From NCBI RefSeq assembly GCF_019649055.1, contig NW_026570301.1, forward strand, positions 496,001 through 560,000: a stretch of DNA of 64,000 nt, written 5' to 3'. Every line of letters begins with the position of its first letter. Positions within the stretch are counted from its first letter, which is position 1. Shown here in pieces: positions 7,006-64,000 of the stretch. The notes beneath the pieces were generated by a model. That model searched no databases, was not told the origin of the DNA, and saw only the letters and a program-made list of their open reading frames with translations. This DNA is from Paramacrobiotus metropolitanus (lineage: Eukaryota; Tardigrada; Eutardigrada; Parachela; Macrobiotidae). The position numbers were made by a program, and so were the translations under genes.

Positions 7006-7015
7006 CCGCCTGCAG
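7006..7015 (+). promoter_or_regulatory. Shared upstream motif CCGCCTGCAG (gene C)
   Basis: Same ten-base word as upstream of B and E, here about 690 bases before the ATG of C. Confidence 0.3.
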
Positions 7016-36370: not shown

Positions 36371-36388
36371 TGGTAAGCAGAATCGTTT
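36371..36388 (+). promoter_or_regulatory. Candidate primer-binding site
   Basis: TGGTAAGCAGAATCG follows the CA end of the proposed LTR and begins with TGG, the complement of the tRNA CCA tail. I could not match the rest to a particular tRNA. Confidence 0.3.
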
Positions 36389-37674: not shown

Positions 37675-40600
37675 ATGTCGAATCCCCGAGAAAACGAATA
37701 CGCGAGAAAGTTCAACACGGACTATTCTCGGCGTGCGAACACGACCGGAAAGTACTCACTCCGGTACGCCGGTCAGGATAAGAGTCAGCCGTCCTCAACC
37801 GACTCGACTAAGTCGGCCGAAGCAAGGGAGAAACGCAATGAACGGATCCTCCTTGCCGACTCGAATCCGACCTCGGACGACAGTTTCGAGGATGCCAGGG
37901 ATAAAACATTCCTGGACACCCAAGCTGACGTAGCAGCCCCGTCCCACCCGACCGGGGGGGATGTGGAACAGCTGCAAGCCGAGACCACATCGTCTCATGC
38001 CGACCAGGAGTCGAGCTCACACAGAGCTCAAGACTCGGTACCGGCCATCAAAGTTACTGAGCTCGGACGGCAATCACCCAACAGGACGGAAGAAATGCCG
38101 AAGCCGACCTCGCCTAACACGGACGCACCGACTAACCAAGTCGGAAGGCAATCGCCGACCACACAGGCCGAGCGAAAATCGCCAACCAGGCAAGTCGGTG
38201 AACAACAACCGACTAGCCAGGCCGACCAACAGAAGGTCGACCTGCCACCAGCTCAGGAGGTCGAACAGCCGACCTCGATCGGAAGGGAAAAGCTGACAAC
38301 AGATGTTGGCAAAGCCCAACCGACCACACAGGTCGGAAGGATTTCGCCGACCTCGAAGGACGGTCAACAGATACCGACCTCAGACGTCGGAGAAAAGGAA
38401 GTCGGCAACAAGCAACCGACTAGCCAGGAACGGCAACCAACCGACAAAAAGTTGGATGCGGCCGTCCAATCGACGAAAATACCGACAGGAACGGAAGATT
38501 CCGAGGTACCGCCACGAAGCGGCCCTCACCCAGCCGGATCGCCGACTAGCATACCGGCACCCAATGAACGGGCTATTGCGCCATTGAGCCGACCTTCGCC
38601 AACCGGAAGCGAGTCGACTCGAGCAACTGAAGCTCAACAAACGGTGAAGTCGATAAAGGCGACACAAAGTCGACCTGCCGACCTGAAGACCAAACCGTCA
38701 CCACCAATGTTCGAAACTAGCGAACTAGGTAGCACTCCGACACCGACAGATGACGTCTTTGGCACAACAGATATGTCGAGACCGAGCAGTGCAGACGGAT
38801 TCTTCACAACACCACCGAAGTCCAACAAGGACAGCCTTGGCTATCAAGCCAGTGCGCTCGAATATACGGCCAAGAAGTGGATCGCGGCCACACCGCCCGA
38901 AAAGATCAATGATCTCGACCTACTCCGAGCAAGATGCCATAAATTGATCACACAGATCGTTTTGGCAGACCGAATCGTCGACTCGGCCGAAGGGTCACTC
39001 CGGAACTCGGAAGACACCCATAAACTCGAACGCAGGAGATGGGAACGTGACATGGCAGATGCTAACAAAGGCATCGCACTCCAACAAAGGGAGATTGATC
39101 GGCTTACCGCCATATTGAAGCGAGCCGACCTACCGTGTCGATACGAAGATGACCAAATTGCCATGCTTAATGGTAAGCTGGATCGGTCAACTGCGGCAGT
39201 TTTTGAAATTAAACACGAACTCGACGAGGCGAACAAAGCCCTCGAAGAGACAAAGCGAGAACTGGCCGAGGTACAAACAGCATTGGTTGAGTCAGAAACG
39301 GCAGCGGGAGCGTTCCACCAGCAACTCAACCAGGCCAACGAAGAGGCCGAAGTATACCGAAACGAAGTCGATCGGTATGCGGTGGAACTGAAGAAGGCCG
39401 ATAACGAGATCGACCGACTAACGCAACGAACCGATGAACTGGAGTCGGAGATGGAACTCCTCTTCACCAGAATGGGACGTTGGTTCATCGATGCGAACGC
39501 TCGAGACATGGGCTTTCCTAACCAAAGGACAGCCAATGTCGACCTGGTGGAAGCAAACGCTCAGCTAGCCGACCAGGTCCACGGACTGAACCAATTCCTC
39601 AAGGAGGAACAGAAACTCCGAACTCAACTGGAGTATAACTTGAACGAGGCTCAGAAGGTGAACGAGGCGCAACACAGCCGCATCCTTTACCTTGAGGCTC
39701 GCGAAGCCGAGCTATATGAATTCGGCGAACAAGCCGCCCGCAACCTCACGGAAATGATGAGGCAAATGGACGAAATGGACACGGAAACACGGTGTCTGCG
39801 GGAAGAGAAGAAACACCTGGAACAAAGCCAGGTCGAACTTCCCTCATACCGGGAACAAAGCCGGGTCGAACCTCCATCATATCGGACGTCCATAGCACAG
39901 GATCAACAGCAGTCGCGAACAATAAGCGACATCCTGTGGGGAAACAATCCGGCCCAGGAGTTAGCGAAGAAGGAGAACAACGCCTCCTACTTCGTCGGAG
40001 TCTTAACTACCGACCCAAGTGTGGGAACAATCCCACAACCACCAACAGTACCGAGTGCTCCGGAACCGGAACACAATACGTCGACCGCGGCACCACGAGT
40101 ACCGACGTCGAACGTGGCGACAACGACGTCTGCCGGTGCATACACCAACACCTCGTACGCGACGCGAACAACAACGTACGCGCCGGCACCTAATGGGAAC
40201 GGAGATCGGATACAAAACGCCGAACGTCCTCCGATCCCACTGCTGAGACCTAGCATGGAGGCATATCGCCCACCAAGGACGAACTCCAATCCGAATTTTC
40301 TCCGCCAGAATCTGCAGTTCGACTTTGAACGCGGACGAGCTCGGTCATTCAACATGGATGACCAACAGCAAGCCGGACGGAACGAGGATAGCTCCGACCA
40401 ACAAGGCCGGAGGCCTCTAAACCGACCTGTACAAGGTCGGATGCCGGATCTAGGAACACAGCCTAACCGGTACGGAAGAGTCTACGACCAACCAAGTGGA
40501 TTCTATCCGCAGGCGCCGAGACAAAATCGAGCGCCCCCTCCACAACAGCATGGAGGACAACCACAACAGCCTCGTTACGAAGACCAGGCCCAAGCGCTGC

Positions 40601-42266
40601 ATCCGCAACAGGACGGATACGAGGATCAGTACGAACCGGCCCACCATCAGCAGGTATATGGGGACCAACAAGGTCACATGCCATATGCCAACCTGCCAAC
40701 CGCCCCAGCCGCACAACAAGCGGAGCTGTTGGCACAACTGATTCCTCCGGCACAAGACCCGAAACACGTTGCCATAGTACGTGCTATCGCCCATGGACGT
40801 CGGCAACCTATGCCGTCGTTCGACGGCGACCACACCAAACTACAAGGGTGGCTTAAACAAATCCGAAGCCTGCATCGTCAAGCCCAACAATGGTACGAGG
40901 ACGACCAGACTTTTATGGCCGACCTGGTGGCCCAACTAGATGGCCAGGCGGAACATTGGCACACCCTCGAAGCCGCCGGAGAACCACTCGGCGGATGGCC
41001 AGTCAACGTATGGCTGACCAAATTCGAGCAACGATTTGCGGACAAAAATAAGGAAGTGAACATGATATCCCGAATTAACAAACGGATATTCCGTTTCGGC
41101 GAAGAAACGCCGGAACAATATTACGACGCGATGATGTTCATGAAGTCCCAAGTCCCTACAATGACTGACCAGATGATACTATATCATCTTAAGGAGAACA
41201 TCCATGAACCCAAACTACGGGAAGCCCTGGAAATAAAGATGCCGGCGACGCCAATCGAACTCCGGGACTATTTACGGAGTTTCGTCAATGGCAAAGAAAT
41301 GTACGAGGTGCGCAAACAACGCGATGGCGACTATGCCAGAGTTCGGGCAGCAACACCCACTCCTGTCCCGGCTCCACCTCCGGCGATACCGCAACAGACC
41401 GGATATCAACCACATATGATGCCAGGATACCAAACTCCGACGGCACAATACGGACAACTGAGTCCGGCGCCGACGCCACCGGTGCAACAAGCACCAGTCC
41501 AGCAACAGACCTGGGCAGGCGCGGCAGCAGCAAATCTGAATTCCCCGACACCCGGACTTGGAGCCCCCGTTAACAACTACGGAGGCCCAGGTTATAGCCC
41601 GGGCGGTAACCAGAACAACACAGGTTTTGGTTACGGACAGAACTTTAACCAGGGATACTCCGCATACGGACAGTATCTCCACAAGGATACGGTGGCGGAG
41701 GCTATGGTCGCGGAAAAGGACGCGGCGGCGGAAATCGCGGCCGTGGAAACTTTCCTAACCGCGGCGGAGGCGGCGGCCCACAAGGCAACCGACCTCCCCA
41801 AGCACAACAAAGTGCTCGGCAAGGGACAACCTATGTCGACAAGATGGAGGCAGCCTTCTTCCAGTGGACGAAGGACAAGACCTTCAGGTGCAGGCACTGC
41901 ATGTTTAACAATCATGACGAGTCGCGCTGCATATACGGGTCGGATAACAATCCGAACCTCCGGTGGTACGATGATTGGTACCGCCGATACTCGACGAATG
42001 GCCCGGTTGGCTCGGCTAACCCCTTTTGGAAGGATATCGTGCCACCGCCGCGCCAACGCCAACAGGCAGGAGGCTCGGGTAGCCCCGGTATCGGAAACCG
42101 GTCACCCGGCCAGGGGAGGGGTGGAAACCGCAACAACAGCGGTGGGAACCAACAAGGTTCCCCGGCATACAGAGAACCGTTGCCGCCCCGCCAGTCATTG
42201 AACTCGACGCCACCCAACAATGGGCCGGCTCGGAGTAACTCCCCGGGAAACGTCCAAGGTCGATGA
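37675..42266 (+). CDS. gag: ORF1: giant Gag (frame 1, then -1 to the zinc knuckle)
   Basis: ATG at 37675. The frame-1 ORF runs to 42201 (1508 codons), but true Gag sequence leaves it near 41690. N-terminal Pro/Thr/Gln repeats span residues ~60-330. A long coiled coil spans ~430-600. A Pro/Gln-rich linker follows, then a Ty3-type capsid region at ~1045-1205 (Phe-Asp-Gly-Asp, then Trp-Leu). A Gly/Tyr/Gln/Asn-rich stretch comes next. From about 41682 the sense moves to frame 3: an Arg-Gly-Gly-rich segment and a CX2CX4HX4C zinc knuckle (Cys-Arg-His-Cys, Asn-His, Arg-Cys, near 41900). That frame ends at TGA 42264-42266, overlapping the ATG of ORF2. Gag would bind and package the element RNA. The shift window is 41649-41700, with no canonical slippery heptamer, so programmed shift or indel are both possible. 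Confidence 0.8.
38060..38480 (+). repeat. Degenerate tandem repeats encoding Pro-Thr-x-Gln-Val-Gly units
   Basis: Units of about 30-36 bases built on CCGAC and GTCGG words encode repeated Pro-Thr-Thr-Gln-Val or Pro-Thr-Ser-Gln peptides. The same words form hairpins at 38128-38144 (loop AACCA), 38193-38214, 38257-38276 (loop AACAGC) and 38320-38336 (loop ACACA). Confidence 0.7.
39815..39890 (+). repeat. Direct repeat of ~36 bases in Gag
   Basis: Two adjacent copies of a unit containing GGAACAAAGCC encode Glu-Gln-Ser-(Gln/Arg)-Val-Glu. The first copy forms a perfect hairpin: stem ACCTGG, loop AACAAAG, 39815-39833. Confidence 0.7.
42144..42162 (+). other. 7-bp perfect hairpin, loop AACAA
   Basis: Stem GGGAACC (42144-42150) pairs with GGTTCCC (42156-42162). 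Same A/C-rich five-base loop class as elsewhere in the element. Confidence 0.8.
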
Positions 42267-45200
42267 GCTCCGGTGACTCATTCGACCTCCAACATCCGAC
42301 TGAACCACCGGACAAGGATAACCGCATTAACCAGCCGACTAACTCCCGGAACGAACCGAACTTCACTCCGTTACAACAACGGATAGCAACAGTCTTAGAC
42401 ACACTAGGACTGGATTGGATAAACTGCACGGAGGTAGAACTCCTCACGGCACTGTCCGCCCCCACAAAGGAGGCGACGGTCGCCCGAAAGATGGCAGCCG
42501 AACTCGGAATCTTCATCAACAACGGTGAAATCGAGATCCGGACCGAAACGCCTGGTCAAAGCGACCTAGCGCACCGACAAGAGGCCGGAACGACGAAAGC
42601 CAAGGAAGGCCAGCAACAAATAGACACCATACTTCAGCTACTTGGACTGAATGAAAACAGTTCCGAGGAGGACTTCGCAAAAGCAATGTCGACCTCCACA
42701 AAGGAGGTAGAGACGGCTCGGAAGTTAGCCGCCCAGCTAGGCGTGTACGTCAACAATGGCACCGTCGAAGCTTGGCCCGGGATGCAACAAGCACTCGAGG
42801 CAACCGACCCAGCGCCTCGACTTGGCACTGGAAAGTCGGAGGTCGGAACGCGAGAAACGCCCGACCTAAGCAGCGCAAACATTGCGATTGCGCCGTCCGC
42901 CACACAAAGTGACGTAGCACGGCCCGGCCACGGAAGTTGGACCGGATTGCCGGTGAGAATAAACTCAACCGAGCAACCCAGACGAGGCCCAAGACGTGGA
43001 GGACCGGGACGCCGATCCACGCACCGGGGTAACAGAAACTTCCCCAATGTATCATCCGGACGCGCAACGGATAGATACGCTGCGACAATGGCAGCCATCG
43101 ACCTCACCGAAGAATCGGAAATAGAAGTCGAAGAATGGGAAACAGTCCCATTGGAAGTACAGGTACCCGTTTACTCTCGGCCGGGAGAAGCGGACCTCTT
43201 CCAGCCAAAGGAACAACCAGCCAGAACGATAACTGGTTCACGAACGTTCCAGAACATCAAATACGCGTTCTCGACATTGAGACCGACAGACGTCCTTACG
43301 GAGGAACGGATATTGGAACAAGCACGACGGCTTACAACCGCCGACGCGCCGAAGGACGGAGTAGCTAACCGACCTGGAGCACAGGACGTGGTTGAAGCCG
43401 GAGTTGAACCTACACAAGGTTCAACCCAACAGTCGGTCGACAACGGACCGGTGTCGTTAATCCCCATCAAACCAACGATGCGGGAAGTGACCTTTGAAAA
43501 AGGCACACACAAGAGACCGAAGACAGTTCGAGCTTGGACACACGAAATTCAAGTCGGATCCACGCCCACACTGGCGATGCTGGATACCGGAGCGGAGACT
43601 TCGCTCATCGAACAGCGGTTTTGTGAGAGGAACGGTTTAACGATGCAACCCCTCGGACACTACACCAAAATACTCGGTGTAGGCGGACAAGTCGCCTTCA
43701 CAGTGTCTCATTGCTGTACGGCACCTGTAACAATGCAGGGCTTTACCAGCCATCACACATTTCACGTACTGAAGTCTATCCCGATACCAGAGGCACCCGC
43801 TGACGCGGATGCCCAGAGCCGAGAGGAAGTACGACAGAAGTACCGAACTTGGTTCTCGGGAGTACGACACTTTCTCGACCAACGGACGTCGGAAATGGCG
43901 ACCACTCTGCAACAAAGCGGAGCGATAACCCCAGATCAGATACTGGAAGCACAACAAATGTGTGAACCAGTAATCGCCCTCATGAACGACATAGAGGACG
44001 AGGCATGGGAATGGGAAGATGAACGAATTCCGATCCATCGACAGTACATGGAATACGGACTCCCTGTCCCACGGCCTTTGGAAATGCCGTGCCAGGAATT
44101 AGGCTCTCAACTATTCGCCTACATGCAGCGAGTACGATTACACGGAGAATCATCGACGACTGCATTTTGGCAACGGTACGGCGAGGACACCGCTATAACG
44201 CGACAAATCCCCAAACCGTTACCAGCACTTATGCCGCACACTCCAACCAATGTGACGTTCGCGAGTAGCCCGGCGAGATCCCAGAAAAAAGTAATCCTGG
44301 AAGAAACTGATAAATCTTATCGGTGTGCTATCTGTCAAGATAATATTGACGAGGTAGTACGAGCAATAAAAGCTCATCACGACCTAACTTGGTCGGACGA
44401 CAGACCGTCGTCACCGTCGCCTCCGCAACAGGAACGGAAGGGTGATCGTTTTCGGAAGCCCCAACAGTCGAGTATCCGATGGCTGAGCAACATAAGCTCC
44501 CAGCCGACCGATCTTGAGAATCAGGACGGAGCGAGCCGACCAACCCAACCGACGGATAAGGTCGACCAAGCCGAACCGACCACACAGGTCGAGGTTGGCA
44601 ACACGCCAGAAGTCGAACCCGAAAACGGATTGGAAGTCGAATTCGAGGATTATCAGTCGGACGACTCGGACATACAAAGTACGAGTGATTCGGCGGACAC
44701 AGACTCCGATAACCGACCTTCGGAAGAATCCGAGGAAGAAGATGACGAGGAATTCGACTTATCAGTCCGACATTGCAAAACGAATAAACCGAGCATAAAC
44801 GACTCGGATGATTCGTCATCGGAGGACGAAGAACCGACCTACGATGTCCGGCTAACTACAGCATTGCGGTCTATAGTCCACACAGAACTTATAAACGAGC
44901 AACCGGAACAAACCGAACAAGAGAAGCCGGTCGACTCCGGACCAAAGGAAGAACTCGACCAACTTAAGGCTTTACGGGAATTCGGAGGAGGCAAACGGGA
45001 GGAAGACGATCCCCGACCTCCGACTATCGTCATCCAGCAGTTGTCAACAGGACAACCGACCTTGGCTAACTTAACCGACCAACAGAAGTCGGAGCATTTC
45101 AACACATGGAAGGCACGAGTTGCCAAAGTCACGACGATCGAAGAGTTGGACCTGGACAACAAATGCCCAGAAGTCCACCACCTAAAGCTGGATCCTTACG

Positions 45201-45994
45201 TAGAGACGAAAGCATTAGACCGACAAGTCGTCTTTAACAGCGAACGAGTCTCTCTCCCACCATGGTCAACATGTTCGATCAAGGTACGGACGGCCAAACC
45301 AATGGATCCGAGAAGACGAATCTACTTCACTACCCTACAACGGGTAGTCCGACCTATACGGCCAATTGAAGCCAAGATCGACATTCGACCGACAAACGAC
45401 ACGGCCTGGATAAACATCCAGAATACGACTCACCAAACAAAGGTGCTGAAGAAGGGCGTACGACTTGGCCATATGCAATATGCCGATGTCTACGAACCAG
45501 AAATCAACAATGAATTCGTCGAATGGGAACTCCCACACAAAGTGGCGAAGACATGGCCCCCGACCCGGAAAGCGAAGCCAAAACCCCAATTCGAAGTTTT
45601 CGAGGCAACAGGAGTTCGAGCCCAACGGAAGGTCAAACTCATTCCTCGAGCCGTAACCATGGTAGAAGTTGTCCTGGACGTACCGGTATCCACGGACCAG
45701 AAACTCATGTACCTAGGTGAATCCGACCCCAAACGAGACGGAGTCGAATTCATGGACGGCGTAACTAAGCATGACGGGAAACGATTCACCGTCATGGTGG
45801 CAAACCACACCCACCGGGAAGTCACCTTACGTAAAGGTGCACCGATGGGTCGAGCCGAAGCATTTACGATGATGACGGACGACCAGAAGGTCGAAGAAGC
45901 ACGAGTCAACCAGGCTGAAGTCGAACAAGAAGACGCAGAATCCCAGGAGGAGCGACGGAGAATCATCGACTCCATGAACTTCGGTAAAACTTAA
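42263..45994 (+). CDS. ORF2: protease polyprotein with duplicated N-terminal domain, 1243 aa
   Basis: Start ATG overlaps the stop of the Gag frame (ATGA at 42263-42266), a classic reinitiation arrangement. Residues ~33-92 and ~115-174 are two copies of a domain with Thr-Lys-Glu...Ala-Arg-Lys and Asn-Asn-Gly. A retropepsin follows near residue 441 (Asp-Thr-Gly-Ala-Glu-Thr-Ser-Leu-Ile). A CX2C...HH putative zinc finger lies near 687 and an acidic Ser/Asp/Glu stretch at ~795-835. Two beta-rich modules lie at ~973-1079 and ~1110-1203, a place where some retroelements keep dUTPase-like folds; I see no dUTPase motif. The ORF ends at TAA 45992-45994, and pol continues in the -1 frame. The protease would process the element's polyproteins. 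Confidence 0.8.
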   Translation: MSSGDSFDLQHPTEPPDKDNRINQPTNSRNEPNFTPLQQRIATVLDTLGLDWINCTEVELLTALSAPTKEATVARKMAAELGIFINNGEIEIRTETPGQSDLAHRQEAGTTKAKEGQQQIDTILQLLGLNENSSEEDFAKAMSTSTKEVETARKLAAQLGVYVNNGTVEAWPGMQQALEATDPAPRLGTGKSEVGTRETPDLSSANIAIAPSATQSDVARPGHGSWTGLPVRINSTEQPRRGPRRGGPGRRSTHRGNRNFPNVSSGRATDRYAATMAAIDLTEESEIEVEEWETVPLEVQVPVYSRPGEADLFQPKEQPARTITGSRTFQNIKYAFSTLRPTDVLTEERILEQARRLTTADAPKDGVANRPGAQDVVEAGVEPTQGSTQQSVDNGPVSLIPIKPTMREVTFEKGTHKRPKTVRAWTHEIQVGSTPTLAMLDTGAETSLIEQRFCERNGLTMQPLGHYTKILGVGGQVAFTVSHCCTAPVTMQGFTSHHTFHVLKSIPIPEAPADADAQSREEVRQKYRTWFSGVRHFLDQRTSEMATTLQQSGAITPDQILEAQQMCEPVIALMNDIEDEAWEWEDERIPIHRQYMEYGLPVPRPLEMPCQELGSQLFAYMQRVRLHGESSTTAFWQRYGEDTAITRQIPKPLPALMPHTPTNVTFASSPARSQKKVILEETDKSYRCAICQDNIDEVVRAIKAHHDLTWSDDRPSSPSPPQQERKGDRFRKPQQSSIRWLSNISSQPTDLENQDGASRPTQPTDKVDQAEPTTQVEVGNTPEVEPENGLEVEFEDYQSDDSDIQSTSDSADTDSDNRPSEESEEEDDEEFDLSVRHCKTNKPSINDSDDSSSEDEEPTYDVRLTTALRSIVHTELINEQPEQTEQEKPVDSGPKEELDQLKALREFGGGKREEDDPRPPTIVIQQLSTGQPTLANLTDQQKSEHFNTWKARVAKVTTIEELDLDNKCPEVHHLKLDPYVETKALDRQVVFNSERVSLPPWSTCSIKVRTAKPMDPRRRIYFTTLQRVVRPIRPIEAKIDIRPTNDTAWINIQNTTHQTKVLKKGVRLGHMQYADVYEPEINNEFVEWELPHKVAKTWPPTRKAKPKPQFEVFEATGVRAQRKVKLIPRAVTMVEVVLDVPVSTDQKLMYLGESDPKRDGVEFMDGVTKHDGKRFTVMVANHTHREVTLRKGAPMGRAEAFTMMTDDQKVEEARVNQAEVEQEDAESQEERRRIIDSMNFGKT
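43403..43425 (+). other. 9-bp perfect hairpin, loop ACACA
   Basis: Stem GTTGAACCT (43403-43411) pairs fully with 43417-43425; loop ACACA. The stem sequence is unrelated to the CCGACC stems elsewhere but keeps the same loop. Confidence 0.85.
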
Positions 45995-49750: not shown

Positions 49751-49926
49751 GGCCATAGGTGTAAAACTTAGAATAAGTTTTAGGTAGCTTAACAATAGCT
49801 AGGTATAGATGGACCTTTGGTGTCGAAATGGAATCTCTTCAGTTGACCGGAAAATCTTCAGTTGAATGTACGGGAGTTGGTAGAATTCTAACGCGCCGTA
49901 TTTCCTTTCCTTGACAGCAAGCAACA
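49751..49926 (+). promoter_or_regulatory. Inter-ORF region with junction motif and strong 3' splice acceptor
   Basis: Contains CATAGGTGTAAAACTTA (49754-49770), repeated before the last ORF at 59381-59398. Part of it forms a perfect stem AAAACTTA with loop GAA. A polypyrimidine tract TTTCCTTTCCTTGACAG ends at 49917, ten bases before the ATG of ORF5, and looks like a splice acceptor. Together they suggest ORF5 is expressed from a spliced or separate RNA, as retroviral env genes are. Confidence 0.5.
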
Positions 49927-55600: not shown

Positions 55601-56255
55601 CGAAACCGACCAACGGAGTCCGCAATATTGCCAAATCGACATCAATCTCGGACACTTGGAAAACAACACCAAGGAAGCCCGATTTATCCTACGACCAACA
55701 ACAGTGTGGTCGGCAAAGAATCAGGAGCGGCTGCAAACCTTGGCAGCCATGATTCAATCCTTCGTAGACGACTTCTACAAGCGGAAGGAAGCGGAAGAGC
55801 AACGTAAGCTGAAGAGGCCGCCCTCTGCTAAGAAGCCTAAGGTACAACCTGTCAAACCGACGCAGAAAGTCTCACCGGTCAGTCACCAAGACGACCCGAT
55901 GGGCGATGCACCAGTACCAGGGCTCGAAGGAGAAGACGAACCCATGGATACGTTGGAGGAAGTCGGAACGACGGAAGTTAACCGACCTCGAACTGAACCT
56001 AAGCCCCTCGAACGACCTACTACTTTGCCTGGGCTCTCACAAAGGGAACCTCAGAGCGAACGGATTGAGGAGCACGGACCACGTAGGCGCCTCTTTCCAA
56101 CGAAGTCGCCGTCACCGGTCAGAACCAAGGAACGACTCTTGGAAATTTTAAAGGCGACTCCTCCCAACCTACCACCGGCTGAAGAGAAGCCGAGTCCGAC
56201 ACGGAAAGTAATGGGAGCAAAGCCCTGTTCACCCTGGCCGTATATAAGAAGTTAG
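52593..56255 (+). CDS. ORF6: giant coiled-coil repeat protein, 1220 aa
   Basis: First ATG 52593, but the frame is open from 52563 and the sequence completes the repeat unit cut at the end of ORF5. ORF5 and ORF6 are therefore probably one protein of about 2100 residues joined by a -1 shift in 52563-52635. It contains more ~80-residue units near 53085, 53390, 53715 and 54070 (shared pattern: long helix, Phe-x-x-His-x-x-Leu, Gly, Arg-Leu, helix). Shorter ~55-residue units lie near 52800, 54450, 54690, 55130 and 55540. Pro/Ser/Thr linkers carrying Pro-Thr-Thr-Gln separate the units. A basic, Pro-rich tail ends at TAG 56253. Function unknown. Confidence 0.75.
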   Translation: MLDKHRLRTAMDQVKTAIVAEKLPTQQTDNARLPTLPLGAVVTSPISSPPPPTTQVDNGAQPPNSQVFDPARLRTLESLKRRRDDAINQSNAIKEQMQNLPTSGADHPRKFQVLVDQYKETSNRHMELDKLIQVEQQMIQLTATPRSPRTTQALATPAVDGEKTFADAKAAPQEAKKILEQIRERSRQGLERFALQKINDFTTHIELVETLVQSGLPQTEAHQRLVQPGVELLTRLNEEHREILTLPSTTTTQAATSKPPSPDRTILYAESAIKEAESTLRRIQQRAEKGLESNVQGIVSEFNTHIQLVRNLIQSGKVEAGIQFRLVMNSISQLQEYERSQRRPASRSQQRPEDSEAEVSDALPSTSSAAEMHSAMRKSRRERMSSIISDGWDLLEDLQRTFVQNTPTDAETLRVARQKMSDLTAYLKKADDLIRKEEPTDVDERQLRSVVERITEILNAEPEYIRIATPSPPRRAAPTTTAVMTLVGTTPMDNLPANLDIITQAGQDLADIYFHRLSGTLTEQEETDLTRVDRALRLELDWADTLGSWGTPPPGPNRDRLVEALQSVIDHVKQYLANPNKAGAPVPAREEIPSPVPSPGLDVELPYADNAVDQKEVDVEEVENQYREAVGVMEKLGKQLRELDPNNAMEKQMRDALDQQYSICSRRVEDLWKILEANPQRAQPTITQSIPPQQPPEPTLAQQREALNEKLARTRRIADSLQRQVDYMDGTDPTIRNIRTAIEDQIRVCQMHIQDVQVDLEILRRKELEGYRKAEQHAPSMQQPTTSSQPTSTTARIQLQPTSTTSSAQSKPMEMADRPMSPATEARIMEAIPDTDELPSTVAPHIVKLLARVAELITEMRARRNFCEENSQEANDLDRDILAWGNNARFIRRLCHPDAPQTTRTRQHLIRTTSWLETRVNEYEEEKERDKERESTNLATSAIAEGRPSRSTKIQSARKPNFDSVRLPPPAPPAKPDLEWVKAVNTQLLRADAVIIELRKMMDETDQRSPQYCQIDINLGHLENNTKEARFILRPTTVWSAKNQERLQTLAAMIQSFVDDFYKRKEAEEQRKLKRPPSAKKPKVQPVKPTQKVSPVSHQDDPMGDAPVPGLEGEDEPMDTLEEVGTTEVNRPRTEPKPLERPTTLPGLSQREPQSERIEEHGPRRRLFPTKSPSPVRTKERLLEILKATPPNLPPAEEKPSPTRKVMGAKPCSPWPYIRS

Positions 56256-56332
56256 TCGGCCAAGCCAAAACATTAGATCTTCAACGGATCCTTTACGAAG
56301 CACAACTTCAAGGAGGAATCCGAGATCGGACC

Positions 56333-58537
56333 ATGACTGATGAGCAACAGACTCAAATGGCCCAGAAGATCCATGCTACGATCCAGGATAGGGACAAAGT
56401 CCTTAGACGGTTGGTGACTTTAAGATGCGGAAAGCAGGAGTTACGACAACTCCCGCTGGATTCGAACATGATTCAGACAATCCAACGGCTCCGCAACCCG
56501 AGCATCAACCCGGGCGCCTATACACTGGAGATTCAACCTCGGCCTGGAGAAGAGGTCACCGAGAAGATTCCGATAACAATGTCGGATAGTAGTGAAGAAG
56601 AGGAGAATGCAGACAACAATGACTCCGATGACTCCACTAAACAAAAGGTAGCGGGACCAGCGAAGGGATCTACACCGAAACGCGGTAGATCGCCGGTTAA
56701 ACAAATTTCGCCGACCCGATCAGCATCCCAGCCGACTAAGCTGCCAAGTCAACCGATGACCGAGAAACCACTTAGGTTTTCACCTCGGAACACCCCGACG
56801 AAACCGAAGAAAACTGAGGAAAAGATGGACATAACATCCCCCTCGGAAGCGCAAGTTGGGATTACGGTCGAAACGTTACCACAAAAGGACGAACCGACCT
56901 CCATTCACTCCGGTCCACGTCTAACAATAGACGAGTCTCGAACGAACGAGTCGGCAAACGAGTCGGTTAACATACCGACTAAACGGAGTACGGTCAAGGA
57001 AAAACCACCTCAAGACTCGTCGCGCGAATTCCATGACGACCCGGCCTTACAACATGTAAAGGACCTGACGAGGTCGGAACAGGATGCCTGCATCGACATG
57101 GCATACCCAGAAGATAGGGAACTCTGGCATTCGTTAAGAATCCGACGTGCCAGTATAACCGGAAACACCACGGAAGCTCGGCGCGACCACGACCGACTTA
57201 CCGAGAAGATGGCCGACGTTATGAAACGTATGGGAGAACATTACCGGGCGGAAAAGAGCCGACCTAAAGCCCTACAAGCGGCTACCCCGACTCAACATAA
57301 AGCCACCGCTCCGGAACCCAAGTCGACCAAGAAGACGGTACAACAACCCGTCAAGATGAAGGTTCCCCCTCCGACCAGGCAACCTTCCGTCCAGATCGAC
57401 GAAGATCTTGAGGCGAGGGTCATCAACTCGGCTAACTCCGCGAAATCCCATAAAGATAGACGGAAGGCCAGGAAAGAAGCAGCGAAACAGCCTGCCAAGC
57501 CCCAACCGACGGAAACTCAAAAGAAACCGGTAAAGTCGAATGCCAAGGAACCGGCCAAACCGAAGTCGGATTCTACGGTGAAGACACCGAAGCCTAACCC
57601 GGCCAAACGGCATAAGTCATCGGACAACTTGGATATCTCGGATGCCGGCCCACAGAGGACCGAGCAGAAGGACAAGGCTCAACAACCGCACGATAAGGAA
57701 GCGGTGGAGCGTAAATTTAAAGAAGTCATGGAACGAACCGGCACAAAGCCGGCTAAGACTTCAGGAGGTCGGTTACGGAACCCACCAAAACCACCGACTC
57801 CGAGTGAACAAACTCAGCCTTCCACATCCAAGCAACAGTCTGATGTGGAATCCGATCATATCTCGGACATCGAGGAACAGGACTCAATCTCCGACCATGG
57901 AGAAGGAGACCCATATGAAGGATTTAAGGGCGACCTGAAAGAAATGTTTGACCACGGAGCGGATACTGATGAATCACAGTGGCCGGCCCCAGACGACGTA
58001 CGTGAGCGTCTTCCGGACGAACAACCGGACGACCCGGTCGAGACATTAATCCGCACCGTCCGAGTACACGTCGAAGTCGTACGGAGCATCGAAAACGCCA
58101 GGAAAAACGATCTGATCTCGTCGTCGGAAGAGGAAACCGACGACGACGACGACGACGAAGATTTCCAAACACCTGGGAACGGGTCACCAAAGGATGATGA
58201 TGACGACGACGAGAACGGTAAACCTCCACCACCGTCGAACTCGGCACCTCAACAGCAGGGCGAACCGGAGATACCGGACAAACAACTCGAAGAAAAGGAC
58301 AGCGGCGACAAAGCCGATGACTCCAAGAGTAACGAGGACAACGGTGGGGTATACATCCCTCGTAAGTACGGCCAACGGATATCACTGACGCCCGACTCCG
58401 ACAACCAGCCACTCCGCTTCGACTTCCATGAAGACATGATCGAAGTCTTGCCGGACGATATTCCCCCACTGGTCAACGTAAGGCTTAAGTACACCGGCAT
58501 CAAATCAGCTTCAAAACCGAAGCCAAGCGCCTCGTAA
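56333..58537 (+). CDS. ORF7: charged, disordered protein, 734 aa
   Basis: ATG 56333, but frame 2 is open from 56183 and overlaps the end of ORF6 in the -1 direction. The upstream codons read like ordinary protein, so a third fused segment is possible. After a short helical head the protein is mostly Lys/Pro/Thr/Ser-rich, with an Asp/Glu-rich C-terminal third (runs of Asp near nt 58140 and 58200). No catalytic motif. The alternation of basic and acidic tracts suggests nucleic-acid or histone-like interaction, which is inference. It ends with TAA 58535-58537; the same frame then continues as ORF8. Confidence 0.65.
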   Translation: MTDEQQTQMAQKIHATIQDRDKVLRRLVTLRCGKQELRQLPLDSNMIQTIQRLRNPSINPGAYTLEIQPRPGEEVTEKIPITMSDSSEEEENADNNDSDDSTKQKVAGPAKGSTPKRGRSPVKQISPTRSASQPTKLPSQPMTEKPLRFSPRNTPTKPKKTEEKMDITSPSEAQVGITVETLPQKDEPTSIHSGPRLTIDESRTNESANESVNIPTKRSTVKEKPPQDSSREFHDDPALQHVKDLTRSEQDACIDMAYPEDRELWHSLRIRRASITGNTTEARRDHDRLTEKMADVMKRMGEHYRAEKSRPKALQAATPTQHKATAPEPKSTKKTVQQPVKMKVPPPTRQPSVQIDEDLEARVINSANSAKSHKDRRKARKEAAKQPAKPQPTETQKKPVKSNAKEPAKPKSDSTVKTPKPNPAKRHKSSDNLDISDAGPQRTEQKDKAQQPHDKEAVERKFKEVMERTGTKPAKTSGGRLRNPPKPPTPSEQTQPSTSKQQSDVESDHISDIEEQDSISDHGEGDPYEGFKGDLKEMFDHGADTDESQWPAPDDVRERLPDEQPDDPVETLIRTVRVHVEVVRSIENARKNDLISSSEEETDDDDDDEDFQTPGNGSPKDDDDDDENGKPPPPSNSAPQQQGEPEIPDKQLEEKDSGDKADDSKSNEDNGGVYIPRKYGQRISLTPDSDNQPLRFDFHEDMIEVLPDDIPPLVNVRLKYTGIKSASKPKPSAS

Positions 58538-58552
58538 TACGACGCGGGATGG

Positions 58553-58918
58553 ATGTACACATTCGCTGCTCTGAGGGCTCTTGCAACAAAAGGACCGAAG
58601 TTTGCTACACCGAAGATCGCCTTTAAACTCCTCCAACATTGGAAGGTGGATGAAACGGGCGACTGGAGACAGCTAAGCCAGAACAACGTACGCCATTATT
58701 GTGACCTGGGATACCACGCAGGGAAGATAATACGTACGTACACCAGCGGAAAACGGATGTACTACGAGTTCCCACCGGCCCAGAGAGACCCGGCACCTTC
58801 AACATATGAAGGATGGATGCACGCCATTGAAGCGTGTATGGGAATGTATTGGCATCCGGAAGGATTAACTCGTAGAGAAATCCTCCACCAACTTACAGCA
58901 CGGTTCGAGTTTGAATAG
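58553..58918 (+). CDS. ORF8: small winged-helix-like protein, 121 aa
   Basis: Lies 15 bases after the stop of ORF7 in the same frame. About residues 8-75 have a helix-helix-helix-wing pattern (Lys-x-Ala-Phe-Lys-Leu-Leu-Gln-His-Trp, Asn-Asn-Val-Arg, Gly-Lys-Arg-Met-Tyr-Tyr). A second similar start (Gly-Leu-Thr-Arg-Arg-Glu-Ile) leads to TAG at 58916-58918. Sense-like sequence continues in frame beyond it to 59224. DNA-binding is a guess from the pattern. Confidence 0.5.
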   Translation: MYTFAALRALATKGPKFATPKIAFKLLQHWKVDETGDWRQLSQNNVRHYCDLGYHAGKIIRTYTSGKRMYYEFPPAQRDPAPSTYEGWMHAIEACMGMYWHPEGLTRREILHQLTARFEFE

Positions 58919-59224
58919 AAAACGGCGGAACCGCAACTAGTCGACCCCAAGTACAAGGCTAAACCAGACCCGACCGCCGGACGGAACAAATACTCCCTGG
59001 AAGACGACTTGGAGTTCGTCTTGGAAAAAGGGCTCGCCCAACAACGGTTTGCCACAAACACCGATAAAATCCAGGGTGGTCAACGGTTTATTGCCTTAAA
59101 TCCATCAACTCACCGTTATGGACATCTACCGAAGGAACGATCGACCTCGGTACAATCGACCGAGCTGGCTGACTCGCACCAAGCAAGTCGGTCGGAGTCA
59201 ACGGAAGCACCTACTCGGGAGTGA
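58919..59224 (+). CDS. In-frame continuation of ORF8 after a TAG stop
   Basis: Frame 2 directly after the TAG is open to TGA 59222-59224. It completes what looks like a second winged-helix unit, with Phe-Val-Leu-Glu-Lys-Gly-Leu and Gly-Gly-Gln-Arg-Phe. Either stop-codon readthrough or a point mutation would explain the arrangement. Confidence 0.4.
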   Translation, partial: KTAEPQLVDPKYKAKPDPTAGRNKYSLEDDLEFVLEKGLAQQRFATNTDKIQGGQRFIALNPSTHRYGHLPKERSTSVQSTELADSHQASRSESTEAPTRE

Positions 59225-59463
59225 GGTAACGCAGAATGCGTTGGAGGAGTGGCATAACCGACCTTCCCCCATTGACGACCACACAGGCGTCATCGACCAA
59301 CAGAAGTCGACCTACCTCATAGACGACCACAAAGGCGTCTTGGACCAGCTCGAGAACCGACCTGGCCCGACCGTAGTAATCATAGGGTGTAAAACTTATA
59401 GGATGCAACCGAGAAACGGTTTGTTTACTTTTGTTTTGACTGAATCGAACGGAAGCTTACACG
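59225..59463 (+). promoter_or_regulatory. Inter-ORF region with second junction motif
   Basis: CATAGGGTGTAAAACTTA at 59381-59398 repeats the 49754 motif with one extra G. Hairpins with loop ACACA (59275-59292) and ACAAA (59329-59347) each carry a bulged A in a GACG-CC stem. A frame-3 ORF across this region seems to be translated hairpin sequence rather than a gene. Confidence 0.45.
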
Positions 59464-61632
59464 GTGGACTGCCAACAGTGCACGGATAATGCGACGCGAG
59501 ACAACAACAGATTGCCCTGCGCATTATGCATCGTATCTTTTACGAACGAACGAGTTACCGGCACCGGAGCGCAACACCGAGCTCAGGCGGCGGCACTTTA
59601 CCTAAATGTTGTCGCTGGCAACCTGAGCGCATACCGGTATCTGGCCGGCCGAGAATACTTAATCTACCAATTGGAGTCCCATGAACAGGATAACTTGGCC
59701 ACAATCCAGCGGCAACGAACCCGCGATCCTAGATGGAAAGAAACTCGACCACCAGTCTTAACGAATAGACTGTTCGAGTATCGTCAGATGCTGGACCTGC
59801 AGCGTCAACTGGACGACCAGAAGAAAATTAAGGAGGTCGATAGACAGATCGCCACAATGCGAGTCCATCCACCACCGACCGATTACGAACCGGAAATAAA
59901 GATCCGCGTACAGACACCCAACCAGGGCCTCCCAACAGCCGGAGAGTTGATCCCCACAATACGCGATGTCTTCGTCGGAGACCCGAATAGACCGATGACG
60001 GGCGCATCCATAACGATGATGATGAACATGCCGGATGGAACTCAACAGCCAGTTACTTTTACACCGGCAACTCAGGAACAGTTGATGGCAGTCCCACACA
60101 GGGCAACGCCAGTAGTCACACAGGCTCGTCCAACTGTTTCTCAGCAGATTCCTCAACCTGGAACTAATGGAAACCGCAATCAACCGGCGGCTCAACAACA
60201 ACAGCGCCGGCCGAGTAAAAACCTCGCGGGACATGACCTGCGACATAGGATCGGTCCGGTCGATCTTCGAGACAGAATCGAAGAGCAACGAGCCGTAATC
60301 CGACAAGCGGGAAAAGAGCCAACCAGGGCTCCACCAGGAAAACGGACTGGATCTGGAGAAACGGGAATCGGACTTACGGTCGACTTAACAAATAAGTCGA
60401 AACGTAATTTCGTCCCACCCGAACAGCAGTCGGAAACTCAACAAGTGGAACCGGCAGCTGAAGTCCAAGCCGAACCAACAGCTCAACAAGAGCAAACGGA
60501 CGTCGACGTAGCCGACCAGATGGCACAACTGCCACAAGTGGAAGTGCCGATCCGAGAAGACCCTCGCTACGATCGAGCTCGACAACAAGGAATCGAGGTC
60601 GTCATGCCGCACCCCACTGAACGGACGAACCACATTATGAATGTTATGAATTACGAGGAACGGAACCGACCACAGATTTGGCGGATGGTAGAAAACCTTC
60701 GTCAATTCCTCGTCCGATCCGGATATCAAACGCTGTTCGAGCAGCATCAGTGGCGATCCGACTTCAACATGAACGCGCACACAGCGCCGAATGTTGAACA
60801 CCCATACACCAGATCGAATGCGTTACCATCGATGACCGACCCGGTCTTGCTGAATGTACCACTTTACAGTCCGGACGGAACGCGTGCGAGCCAACTAGGA
60901 GCTCGGGAATACTCCCATGACGAGTTGGAGAGCATTGCCCAGTTCGTCATAACGGACGCCCATCCAGCCTTCGTAATCACCGCAGCTCGGGCAGCACTGG
61001 ACTTAAACCAGCATCTCCCGGAAGGGGAGATCGACATGGCCCAGGACGGAGTCGCGGCATTCCTGCGATTCATTTTCGCAGCACGGCTTGGCAATTACTT
61101 CTGCCATTACACCTTGTACGGACTGTACCAAAACGAAATGATACCAGCGGCCTTGGAAACCATCGTAGCCCAACTCGGCACGCCAATGAGAAGTGTTATC
61201 CTCGCCGTCTGGATGCGCGACTTGCTGTACACCCACGAACGGTATGCGACAAAGTATGCCTTTCGTGAGGATCACGTAGATCCCAGCGACGACGCAACTC
61301 GATTCATCAGCTGGTACCGCGAGAAGAAGACTTTGCCCAGCGGATTCAATTCGTCGCCTTACGAACCTTGGATGTCGGACGACATAGCACCCGGCGCACG
61401 ACCATACGCGCTGAGGCTCCGTAAACAAGCGGCCAGGGAATCGAGGAAGGGCAGAACGGATCGTTCCGGTCAAGAAACGGACGAGACCGACGAGACGTCT
61501 CAACGGAGTGGCCCGGCAACTTGCAGACCCAAGGACCCAAACATCCGGCCACATGACCGACCTCGCCCGGACGACGAAGAGGATGAAGATTACTTCGGCG
61601 GCGATAAGCCCGTCGAAGTCCCACTCAGCTAA
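59464..61632 (+). CDS. ORF9: 722-residue protein with N-terminal zinc ribbon-like cysteines
   Basis: Frame 1 is open from 59440; the listed start at 59464 is GTG and the first in-frame ATG is only near 59788, so the true start may be spliced or shifted in. The N-terminus has CX2C and a second CX2C about 14 residues later. A Pro/Gln/Thr-rich middle follows, then Asp-Leu-Arg-His-Arg-Ile and Asp-Leu-Arg-Asp-Arg-Ile. A mostly helical, ordered C-terminal half (residues ~370-640) precedes an acidic end. No envelope features. Family not recognised. Confidence 0.6.
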   Translation: MDCQQCTDNATRDNNRLPCALCIVSFTNERVTGTGAQHRAQAAALYLNVVAGNLSAYRYLAGREYLIYQLESHEQDNLATIQRQRTRDPRWKETRPPVLTNRLFEYRQMLDLQRQLDDQKKIKEVDRQIATMRVHPPPTDYEPEIKIRVQTPNQGLPTAGELIPTIRDVFVGDPNRPMTGASITMMMNMPDGTQQPVTFTPATQEQLMAVPHRATPVVTQARPTVSQQIPQPGTNGNRNQPAAQQQQRRPSKNLAGHDLRHRIGPVDLRDRIEEQRAVIRQAGKEPTRAPPGKRTGSGETGIGLTVDLTNKSKRNFVPPEQQSETQQVEPAAEVQAEPTAQQEQTDVDVADQMAQLPQVEVPIREDPRYDRARQQGIEVVMPHPTERTNHIMNVMNYEERNRPQIWRMVENLRQFLVRSGYQTLFEQHQWRSDFNMNAHTAPNVEHPYTRSNALPSMTDPVLLNVPLYSPDGTRASQLGAREYSHDELESIAQFVITDAHPAFVITAARAALDLNQHLPEGEIDMAQDGVAAFLRFIFAARLGNYFCHYTLYGLYQNEMIPAALETIVAQLGTPMRSVILAVWMRDLLYTHERYATKYAFREDHVDPSDDATRFISWYREKKTLPSGFNSSPYEPWMSDDIAPGARPYALRLRKQAARESRKGRTDRSGQETDETDETSQRSGPATCRPKDPNIRPHDRPRPDDEEDEDYFGGDKPVEVPLS
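60380..60400 (+). other. 8-bp perfect hairpin, loop ACAAA
   Basis: Stem TCGACTTA (60380-60387) pairs fully with 60393-60400; loop ACAAA. Located inside ORF9. Confidence 0.85.
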
Positions 61633-61636
61633 GATT

Positions 61637-61656
61637 GAGTTCCCACATTGGAACTC
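61637..61656 (+). other. 7-bp perfect hairpin, loop CACATT
   Basis: Stem GAGTTCC pairs with 61650-61656. The same CACATT loop caps shorter stems at 50471-50484 and 63310-63323. Confidence 0.8.
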
Positions 61657-61690
61657 GATCCCCCACTTGGAACAACTAAGGGGACTCAAC

Positions 61691-61767
61691 GCCGAGAAAC
61701 GGCACGGTCGAGAACCGACCTGACTGAGAAACAGTCTAGCTGAGAAACGGCACCGTCGAGAAACGAC
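61691..61767 (+). repeat. Array of five consecutive hairpins with AGAAA/AGAAC loops
   Basis: Stems GCCG (61691), GGTCG (61706), GACTG (61722), GCTG (61739, one G-U) and GTCG (61755) each pair with the bases after a five-base loop AGAAA, AGAAC, AGAAA, AGAAA and AGAAA. The stems differ, the loop stays. Spacing between loops is 12-16 bases. Non-coding. Confidence 0.85.
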
Positions 61768-62387
61768 TTTGGAATGGATACTTTTCTTTTGTTTTTCACA
61801 GGAACCGATTAAACATGTATGCCGCGGACGTCGACAATGACTTTGCCAGAGAGCCGACTACACAAGTTGGCCGGATTCTTCGGTTTGACCCGGACACGAG
61901 TGGTTAGACCTGACAAGCCGGCTTTTTCCACCGTTCCGGTACGTCTTCCGAGGAATCCCCTGGATTGAACTGAGCAAACCGACCTCAGTTCCCCAGCATG
62001 GCATGCACGGATCGTGAACCACGTCTGCTAACATAGCAGATCGCAACCACGTTCTGCGACCATCGGAGCCAACAGAAGCTCCAACCCGCGCTACATGGAA
62101 TGAAGATACTCCGGCCAACCGACTTCGGAGCATGAACCGAGAGGATTACGCTAACATGGCGCTGAATACGTCGCTGCGTGTTCACCGCCATGTTTGCCGA
62201 GCACCCGTGGCCAACTTCGGAACCGGGTAGCCGAGCAGCCTTCACCAGTGTAAACAGCGGACATCCCTCGGCCGAGTCGCCAACAGTGCAGGAAAACTCG
62301 GATCTGACTATATGTACTCGAGCCGACCACAAAGGCCGACTTTGTACTTTGCCCATAACTTGGAGACATCACGAACATAGCTGCAGG

Positions 62388-62430
62388 CTGACCACACAGG
62401 TCGGTTGTGCAAACCGACCACACAGGTCGG
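62388..62430 (+). other. Two ACACA-loop hairpins that can also refold into one 8-bp stem
   Basis: CTGACC/GGTCGG (62388-62404, one G-U) and CCGACC/GGTCGG (62414-62430), both with loop ACACA. Alternatively GGTCGGTT (62399-62406) pairs perfectly with 62412-62419 around loop GTGCA. The two forms exclude each other, a switch-like geometry. Confidence 0.75.
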
Positions 62431-63530
62431 CTTTGGAAATCGAAACGGCCAAAACAGTAGCCGACCAAGAAGAATGGACGGAAGCTGGCCGTAGTCATGT
62501 GGTAACTTCACCGGATTCTCCGTTTGAACCCAGATCTACAGGAACTCAACTAGGAACCTGTACCCGGAGTCCAACCGCAGTCTCCCCCGGACGATATCGG
62601 GTAAACCAGCCGATTCACCGGTGACCACGACTACGCGCGTCTTGAACGTGCAGCCATTCCCTGAAGAGGAACAGCGACGGTGATTTGGCCGCCACTCCAA
62701 TGACTCCGCCGCAACCTGCTTCCCCATGTCTTCTATGGAACATCCTAGGCAGATCGGATTAGAATATCCGACCTGCACCCCTTCACCAACACCCGCTGGC
62801 GACGACCGCCTGTCCGCAACAGTAACAGTCAGTCGGCCTTCGTCAGCGGCAAAGATAGTCGAGACACAATTTCCCCGTGGACGTGAGGTGTCTACCCCAA
62901 CAGAACGGCTAGGCGTCTCAGGTTCGCGGCAAAAAGATATGGAAGAATCGGATCTGACGACCTCAGGGAATTGCATGTGCATGAAGTTTAAACAGCTCGT
63001 CAACCGGGGCCACAAAGACCCCATGTTCTAAGCGAGCACATTTGCATGATGGAGTCACTCGGCCAACAGATGCCGGAAGAAATTGTGACCGCGCGGGACT
63101 CGGCCGCCCAGAGGCATGACCAGCTAACAGTAGCTCGGATCCGGCCCAGAGTTCTTGTCAGGAATCACAGAAGGAACGGAGTTGTGCTGCCGAACATCCT
63201 TCTGCCAGTCAAACGATGACCGAAGGATGTCCGAACAACGGAGACCCGGTCAACTGTAGCCGGACGCACAGAACTCCTAGGAGTAGCTCGACTTGATGAA
63301 CGCCGACTAGCCCCACATTGGGCGTGACGGTACAAGTCTTCCCAACCGACCTCAAATTGAAGATCGGATGACCCAACGGAGGTCGGAAGCACACGGTAAC
63401 CAGTCGGAAGGAGCGATCAGAAGTTGGAAATCGACCTCCCGGCGGAACAATTCAGTTTTTGACGGGTGAACACAAAGTTCATCTGACCTCGAGGAAGTCG
63501 GACATAACCGACCTTAGATGAAGTAATAAC

Positions 63531-63553
63531 CGACCTCGAACGGAGGTCGGTAG
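63531..63553 (+). other. 9-bp perfect hairpin, loop GAACG
   Basis: Stem ACCGACCTC (63531-63539) pairs fully with 63545-63553. Confidence 0.85.
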
Positions 63554-63648
63554 TGACCGAACAGAAGTCGGAAGGATGCGACAACAAGTCGGCAAAGGTA
63601 TTTGGAAGTCGAGAACCGACTTTCTAACGGAAGAACCCACCTTTCGGA

Positions 63649-63671
63649 CGGATGAACACACAGTTCATCCG
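63649..63671 (+). other. 9-bp perfect hairpin, loop ACACA
   Basis: Stem CGGATGAAC (63649-63657) pairs fully with 63663-63671. A related hairpin at 63467-63485 has loop ACAAA and one G-U pair. Confidence 0.85.
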
Positions 63672-64000
63672 ACCTTCCGAAGCCAACATGACGGGAAAGA
63701 CTGATAGCTATCCGCGATGGACGAATTCGACTTGAAGGAACTTGTTTAGCCCTACATGGGCATGTTATTGCAGGTTAACCCTAGTCGACCACCGGCGGAT
63801 AGGCTGACCGACCTTGACTACAGGTCGGATGGGATAGCCGACCTCGAATAGAAGTCGACTTGACACTCCCATTGAAGGAACTCATTGTTTCCGACCGGAC
63901 CTTCGAGCCAGTTCGACTCGGATAACTTCAAACCAGGCTCGTGGTAGCAGATTGAACGGTTGTAACCGACCACTTTTCGAACGGAACCGCTGTACATGAC

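Follow-up and report, generated by a model that had tools for sequence, protein, structure and literature searches.

The sense strand of a giant retrotransposon in the tardigrade Paramacrobiotus metropolitanus is studded with small hairpins that combine one shared loop, ACNNA, with variable stems. The window analysed here comprises 64,000 nucleotides of contig NW_026570301.1 (positions 496,001 to 560,000), and the element in its right 28 kb is, on sequence evidence, a recent insertion of a Ty3/Gypsy long terminal repeat (LTR) retrotransposon of ~29.4 kb. Its copy in the window contains 28 strong sites (stem of at least 5 bp), namely 23 pentaloops ACNNA and five heptaloops in which ACNNA is enclosed by a mismatched cap. 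The explanation that we favour, with a probability of roughly 55%, is that these dispersed cis-acting hairpins on interchangeable stems would be read by one trans-acting protein, most likely the nucleocapsid (NC) part of Gag, as packaging or assembly signals of the 28.5-kb genomic RNA. Three parts of this reading are our inference: a protein as the reader, its identity as Gag NC, and packaging as the process served.

A preliminary description of this DNA had listed 15 perfect hairpins with ACA-type loops, every one of which was found letter for letter, and three more with a G-U pair (61853, 62388 and 63467), which were confirmed by eye; the last also represents a perfect 5-bp core. Our scan for perfect hairpins (stem of at least 6 bp, loop of 3 to 8 bases) between 37675 and 63828 retrieved 75, compared with 29.0 (standard deviation 5.0) in 40 dinucleotide shuffles. 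ACA was present in 36 of the loops (shuffles 3.0, standard deviation 1.6, maximum 7) and TGT in none (shuffles 0.45). For loops of exactly five bases on stems of at least 6 bp (36371-64846; loops with end bases able to extend the stem were kept) we counted 36 hairpins, 19 of them with ACA, against a dinucleotide expectation of 7.2 and 0.4; for this class the earlier estimate of fewer than one expected ACA-loop stem is thus right. Third- and fifth-order Markov models likewise gave about 7 hairpins and 0.4-0.6 with ACA, which rules out word bias as the cause. When synonymous codons were permuted in seven open reading frames (ORFs; 200 shuffles), the 59 observed hairpins stood against 27.3 (maximum 40) and the 30 observed ACA loops against 2.9 (maximum 8). 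Moreover, ACNNA hairpins with a stem of at least 4 bp begin in all three frames (13/8/9), and both results together exclude codon or peptide repeats as the origin of the signal.

The loop bias is confined to the sense strand, as had been proposed, and all antisense checks were empty: none of 20 occurrences of TNTGT has even a 3-bp stem, the 3' region, examined in 28 copies, has no TNNGT hairpin with a stem of at least 5 bp, and none of 159 cores on the reverse strand of the element is an ACNNA hairpin of either class. Folding of 150-nt segments gave a mean z of -1.71 on the plus and -1.28 on the minus strand of the element, compared with -0.31 and -0.41 in host DNA, and each of the seven hairpin sites tested individually (four in the window, three in the copy L034) adopts the proposed fold (z -2.1 to -6.0). 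In the window, no Rfam family matched at the gathering cutoff. The proposed RNA structure on the sense strand is supported by the strand bias, by the controls for composition and codons, by folding and by compensatory changes at some sites, and selection at the RNA level on the shared loop appears well supported.

Rather than by ACA somewhere in the loop, the signature is better defined by a pentaloop ACNNA (ACANA in most cases) whose cap depends on the lineage. The 62 pentaloops with a stem of at least 5 bp are dominated, position by position, by A (44), C (30), A (34), N and A (41), and in six- and seven-base loops ACA tends to occupy positions 2-4. Stems of at least 6 bp enclose 12 of the 210 ACANA pentamers of the element (5.7%, vs 0.13% of all pentamers) and none of 184 in host DNA. 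The 23 strong pentaloop sites have 17 distinct loop-proximal 5-bp stems, i.e. a shared loop on variable stems. A laxer count yields 43 sites, with at least one in each of the 14 2-kb bins between 36371 and 64000, and the sites lie both inside and outside ORFs, in agreement with the earlier statement about coding and non-coding parts. The strong sites of the window copy, together with one G-U hairpin, are as follows.

38013..38029, +, pentaloop ACACA, stem 6; heptaloop in sister lineage
38223..38239, +, heptaloop AACAGAA, stem 5
38320..38336, +, pentaloop ACACA, stem 6; heptaloop in sister lineage
39815..39833, +, heptaloop AACAAAG, stem 6
40801..40815, +, pentaloop ACCTA, stem 5
42692..42708, +, pentaloop ACAAA, stem 6; outer pair A-T/G-C among copies
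43403..43425, +, pentaloop ACACA, stem 9; pair change C-G/T-A among copies
44577..44591, +, pentaloop ACACA, stem 5; heptaloop in sister lineage
45823..45839, +, pentaloop ACGTA, stem 6; sister lineage also pentaloop
46813..46833, +, heptaloop AACTTAG, stem 7
49500..49514, +, pentaloop ACAGA, stem 5
50770..50786, +, pentaloop ACACA, stem 6
52413..52431, +, heptaloop GACAGAA, stem 6
52541..52557, +, pentaloop ACATA, stem 6
52747..52761, +, pentaloop ACACA, stem 5
53197..53213, +, pentaloop ACATA, stem 6
53915..53929, +, pentaloop ACGAA, stem 5
53950..53964, +, pentaloop ACAGA, stem 5
55158..55174, +, pentaloop ACAGA, stem 6
56765..56779, +, pentaloop ACTTA, stem 5
57738..57752, +, pentaloop ACAAA, stem 5
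58796..58812, +, pentaloop ACATA, stem 6
60264..60284, +, heptaloop GACAGAA, stem 7
60380..60400, +, pentaloop ACAAA, stem 8
61269..61283, +, pentaloop ACGTA, stem 5
61853..61871, +, hairpin with one G-U pair, ACACA, outside the count of 28; homologue in L043 is the heptaloop CACATAA
62414..62430, +, pentaloop ACACA, stem 6, outside long ORFs; three compensated stem versions among copies
63467..63481, +, pentaloop ACAAA, stem 5, outside long ORFs
63649..63671, +, pentaloop ACACA, stem 9, outside long ORFs; z -6.0

What sets this element family apart from the other pieces examined is the loop signature alone; an excess of hairpins is not specific to it. An excess is also found in host DNA at 9-18 kb (29 vs 13.6 expected) and 18-27 kb (27 vs 12.4) and at two other loci with a reverse transcriptase (RT), L040 (32 vs 11.3) and L041 (36 vs 12.2); none was seen in host DNA at 27-35.5 kb (11 vs 12.1) and at the RT-bearing locus L042 (10 vs 12.9). 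The flank L002 downstream of the element (C81:569001-579000) contains 47 perfect hairpins vs 13.5 expected, with short mixed loops. Two 9-kb pieces of the element contain 17 and 10 ACA loops on stems of at least 6 bp, compared with 0-3 per 9-10 kb in pieces of host DNA, flanks and other elements. The sense strands of the three other RT-bearing loci (9 kb each) contain 0, 3 and 0 ACNNA hairpins, the flanks L002, L003 and L044 contain 0, 0 and 2, and in 35.5 kb of host DNA they account for 0 of 522 cores on one strand and 1 of 658 on the other. Neither inspection by eye nor a trinucleotide table revealed a loop code of their own in L040-L042. L042, which lacks the hairpin code, is one of the RT loci situated in reading frames of 3200-3610 amino acids; seven of the 150 RT matches listed belong to this type (G000:C52:901114, C13:640823, C78:477360 and others).

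The host genome surveyed (169.8 Mb) harbors at least 45 copies of the element, a lower bound, since pol matches at least 44 further places at 86-98% amino-acid identity, some of them partial. Our sample of these comprised the region upstream of pol in 14 copies (in pieces), the 3' end of 28 copies and, for lineage B, the 3' half of a single copy; the duplicate loci L015 and L017 (= copies L026 and L025) were removed before the alignment, anchoring and compensation analyses. The 14 copies sampled upstream of pol fall into three lineages: A (window copy, L038, L039, L051 and L047), B (L034, L035, L045, L049 and L050, with L043 representing the 3' half of the L034 copy on C42) and C (L036, L037, L048 and L046). 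Lineage A copies share 63-66% identity with L034 in the N-terminal part of ORF1 (37% in the poorly aligned L047) and 75-76% in ORF2.

The loop cap differs between these lineages. Lineage A has the pentaloop, which is nearly absent from lineage B, where heptaloops of the form M-ACNNA-A (CACAGAA, AACGGAA, AACACAA) are found; the closing pair is changed to C.A or A.A and the lower stem is still paired. The base after ACNNA is mostly a G, usually paired with C, in one lineage and mostly an unpaired A in the other. Pentaloops and heptaloops number 23 and 5 in the window copy vs 4 and 29 in the C42 copy (Fisher p 2.7e-8, odds ratio 33), a test of one copy per lineage in which, hence, every site is a different place. 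Ten homologous sites of the 5' half are present in both lineages: five are pentaloops in lineage A and heptaloops in lineage B, four are heptaloops in both and one is a pentaloop in both. A sixth difference is located near the 3' end, where the 61853 site reads GCCGACT-ACACA-AGTTGGC vs GCCAAC-CACATAA-GTTGGC. The base after ACNNA is G 34, A 19 and T 4 in lineage A, A 69, T 7, G 3 and C 2 in lineage B, and G 19, A 14, C 5 and T 1 in lineage C, sums that are not independent, as copies share sites by descent. The comparison spans one element family in one species.

The preliminary description had further claimed that stems change while pairing and loop persist, which applies between sites and, at some sites, between copies; many sites turn over instead. 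Eighteen of 50 homologous sites are private to one of nine copies, and the sites thus behave as an interchangeable population with gains and losses, not as a constant set. Compensation was followed at 62414, which was located by its left anchor in 22 of the 28 copies; the 22 rows collapse to 12 distinct 17-nt rows, with one row carrying a one-base deletion dropped. Its stems are mostly CCGACC/GGTCGG, CCGATC/GATCGG or CCGACT/AGTCGG around the loops ACACA, ACAGA, ACAAA or ATACA. Here 93.1% of cells are paired (86.2% when shuffled) and the covariation score is 0.354 (0.216 when shuffled), values that none of 500 shuffles reached. The hairpin at 62754, which lacks ACA, exhibits double changes at three pairs, and its outer pair is open in 10 of 28 copies. 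Across the 3' alignment, doubly changed cells are still Watson-Crick in 22 of 24 cases for ACA stems, 80 of 99 for other stems and 35 of 40 for 5-bp stems (control 0.50). The height of this null reflects that a double change in randomly chosen complementary pairs frequently leaves them paired, and the cells are not independent; the 3' result is therefore supportive rather than decisive. In the 5' half, when L034 serves as the reference, 23 of 28 doubly changed cells are still paired (control 0.39). The evidence for compensation is clear at individual sites but mixed when all sites are taken together.

The organization of the element is given below. The preliminary description had delimited it as 37799..63828, which is too small: the span from LTR to LTR extends from 35933 to C81:561293, 1293 bases beyond the window end.

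35933..36370, +, 5' LTR (TG...CA), 438 bp, with a target-site copy GGAT just before it
36371..64000 and on to C81:560855, +, internal region between the LTR ends, ~28.5 kb in all
37675..42201, +, ORF1, Gag by position; alignment of copies indicates a variable N-terminus and a coiled-coil-like part
41889..41930, +, CCHC zinc knuckle of Gag (CRHCMFNNHDESRC), CX2CX4HX4C, preceded by an RG-rich tract
42263..45994, +, ORF2 with aspartic protease (residues 429-497; Pfam PF13650 match)
46129..49218, +, pol with reverse transcriptase, RNase H and integrase (Pfam matches over cutoffs)
49927..61632, +, accessory ORFs 5-8 (902, 1220, 734 and 722 amino acids), no assigned function
C81:560856-561293, +, 3' LTR beyond the window end, pair of the 5' LTR

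The two LTRs are identical over the 437 bp compared, and the target-site duplication GGAT, read from the sequence, flanks the element on both sides. The protease of ORF2 (DTG at 441) matches PF13650 with E=5.5e-05 and 24.2 bits, 0.1 bit short of the cutoff of 24.3, and the domain order protease, RT, RNase H and integrase is that of Ty3/Gypsy elements. The only homologue of ORF2 retrieved was one protein of P. metropolitanus. More distant relatives of pol are P0001-P0003 (58-67% identity). Among the best 120 of 2238 matches, the top-scoring one outside the species is P0004 (41% identity over 37% of the query), and others, e.g. P0012, have ~33% over 88% of the query. The accessory ORFs 5-8 yielded neither a family match above cutoff nor a transmembrane segment in a simple hydropathy scan, so that there is no obvious env. 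ORF5 has a weak match to HTH_23 (residues 770-811), and the basic ORF4 contains a 96-nt direct repeat at 49366-49560, 75% identical, that holds GACCACAGAG segments. The lineage-B copy on C42 (L043:1-7164) ends 7.2 kb past pol with its 3' LTR at 6788-7164, and L043 has no alignable counterpart of the window at 49.6-59.1 kb (ORFs 5-7), which indicates that giant size is not common to all lineages.

The preliminary description had proposed a Gag-like reader, for which the evidence is circumstantial: Gag contains one CCHC knuckle next to an RG-rich tract, and the knuckle differs by loop lineage. According to the part of PMC7599994 cited here, retroviral NC knuckles contact loop bases. The knuckle is CRHCMFNNHDESRC in the window copy, L038, L039, L047 and L051, CRHCMFNNHDGARC in L036 and L037, CHFCKFGNHPQARC in L034 and L049, CHYCKFGNHDQTRC in L035, CNFCKFNNHAQARC in L045 and CHLCKFGNHDQARC in L046; the fetched pieces of L048 and L050 contain none. 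At stems of at least 5 bp, pentaloops outnumber heptaloops in five of the seven copies with a CRHCMF knuckle (L047 is a tie and L051 the reverse), and heptaloops outnumber pentaloops in all four lineage-B copies with the knuckle in view and likewise in the mosaic L046. The NC segment of the latter (C60:836964-845963) is 86% identical to L034 and the rest of its 5' half is nearer to lineage C or A, which suggests recombination between element lineages. A conserved W/F-rich, capsid-like block of ORF1 lies near 40756-41322 in the alignment of copies. It has a weak sub-threshold match to DUF4939 in three of five copies, the window copy not among them, and a single-sequence structure model of it (predicted local distance difference test score 50) was uninformative and not used; a sequence search of the PDB with Gag returned nothing beyond weak coiled-coil matches. 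ORF1 of the window copy diverges from the other copies past residue ~1333. Despite the LTR identity the knuckle of the window copy is off the ORF1 frame; it is in frame in L036, L038 and L046. The Gag frame is thus disrupted in the window copy, because the frame of the knuckle differs from that of the remaining ORF1.

According to the reading of the hairpins as packaging signals, the element RNA presents tens of small hairpins with one loop, the step that is seen at sequence level. A protein with affinity for ACNNA would then occupy many of them; since the cap differs between sister lineages that share a host, the NC encoded by the element would be the best candidate. Many weak, equivalent contacts may select and condense the 28.5-kb RNA and nucleate a virus-like particle. 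As an extension, which we advance tentatively and rate below an even chance, the cap may serve as a code of lineage identity: each giant-element lineage would have rewritten dozens of dispersed hairpins as its Gag zinc knuckle changed, thereby preventing cross-packaging between sister elements in one genome.

Several observations weigh against the reading as Gag-bound packaging signals. The association of knuckle and loop is what a Gag reader would predict, but it is expected by descent alone, because both are lineage markers, and the case for Gag is confounded accordingly. L051 has an A-type knuckle and two pentaloops vs seven heptaloops, yet it keeps the 3' G at five of eight strong sites; L047 has one loop of each kind, L036 has 11 of each at stems of at least 4 bp, and the mixed loops of L046 (five pentaloops, eight heptaloops) are small numbers that do not decide the matter. 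Pol contains one strong site only. Two of the five measures at 62414 do not exceed the shuffles, namely double-change pairs (2; 384/500) and pair types (3; 500/500). Compensation is weak in the 5' half of the penta group, where 20 of 36 doubly changed ACA-stem cells are still paired (controls 0.40 and 0.48), and between the window copy and lineage B (7 of 16; controls 0.37 and 0.47). Finally, retroviral knuckles mostly read an exposed G, with the second knuckle of Rous sarcoma virus contacting two A, as described in the part of PMC7599994 cited here; unlike most of these targets, the ACNNA loop requires no G.

The strongest competitor is recognition by a host RNA-binding protein, which would serve export, localisation, translation or silencing evasion of the element RNA. 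The same sequence evidence fits any loop-reading protein, and the SAM domain of Smaug is a single-domain reader of loops on arbitrary stems. However, two element lineages in one genome use different caps, which is easier to understand with a co-evolving element-encoded reader, and the motif is nearly absent from the 35.5 kb of host DNA and the three other RT-bearing loci; we regard a host reader as unlikely, albeit a serious contender. Clearly less probable are sites of RNA processing or modification by an RNase III-like or METTL16-like enzyme. In their favour, ACAGA presented by a structured loop is similar to the targets of METTL16, and the yeast enzyme Rnt1 recognises one constant tetraloop on stems of differing sequence; against them, the third and fourth loop bases are variable, stems of 5-9 bp are less than RNase III usually needs, and the sites occur throughout ORFs. 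A similarly low probability, already disfavoured, is assigned to genome-wide RNA structure of a general kind that no specific reader recognises, in which A-rich loops would derive from an A-rich strand. The sense strand of the internal region is indeed A-rich (AT skew ~ +0.2 to +0.4), on either strand the element has a lower folding z than host DNA, non-ACA hairpins are in mild excess, and AAC, GAA and CAA are also enriched in loops; the dinucleotide, Markov and codon controls nevertheless fail to reproduce the position-specific loop and the lineage-specific cap. Least probable of all and already disfavoured by the loop data is a mutational origin by RT template switching, which makes quasi-palindromes palindromic and could account for the hairpin excess with mixed loops elsewhere in the genome, but which predicts neither a loop preference nor a concerted cap change at homologous sites, nor the contrast between ACA-loop hairpins (38 vs 2.7 expected, ~14-fold) and other loops (50 vs ~27, ~1.8-fold).

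Gag NC as the reader of dispersed packaging signals may be compared with known systems. The CCHC knuckle and RG tract of the element Gag are reminiscent of retroviral Psi/NC recognition. Psi is a compact element in the 5' leader, whereas the hairpins described here are spread over the whole RNA, including every 2-kb bin, and have A/C loops. The closest precedent is the packaging-signal-mediated assembly of satellite tobacco necrosis virus (STNV), also known from MS2 and hepatitis B virus, which likewise relies on many dispersed stem-loops with a common loop. In the cited parts of PMC3593212 and PMC3662417, the coat protein of STNV favours the B3 tetraloop ACAA whatever the stem, the motif AXXA potentially occurs up to 30 times in the 1239-nt genome, and the assembly yield is indifferent to stem sequence. 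The tardigrade element differs by its pentaloop or capped heptaloop ACNNA, its 28.5-kb retroelement RNA and its lineage-specific cap change; we liken it to STNV and do not claim membership in that class.

With respect to size, the planarian Burro is also a giant Gypsy-like element with extra coding capacity, whose internal region reaches up to 25 kb (>30 kb with LTRs), and the portion of the source cited here mentions no hairpin code for it (PMC6431247). In the tardigrade element, by contrast, the internal region measures 28.5 kb, the LTRs are short and the coding capacity is divided among many separate ORFs. In the open-access literature we found no report of such a hairpin code in retroelements or of such a giant element in P. 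metropolitanus. Particle packaging capacity is named as one limit on retroelement length in the cited portion of a review of giant transposons (PMC6431247), and an array of equivalent loop signals along the genome RNA would be one possible answer to this limit. The idea of dispersed packaging signals can be put to a direct test in this species, whose genome carries 45 or more copies: the 14 that we sampled divide into three lineages, and the loop is changed at homologous sites.

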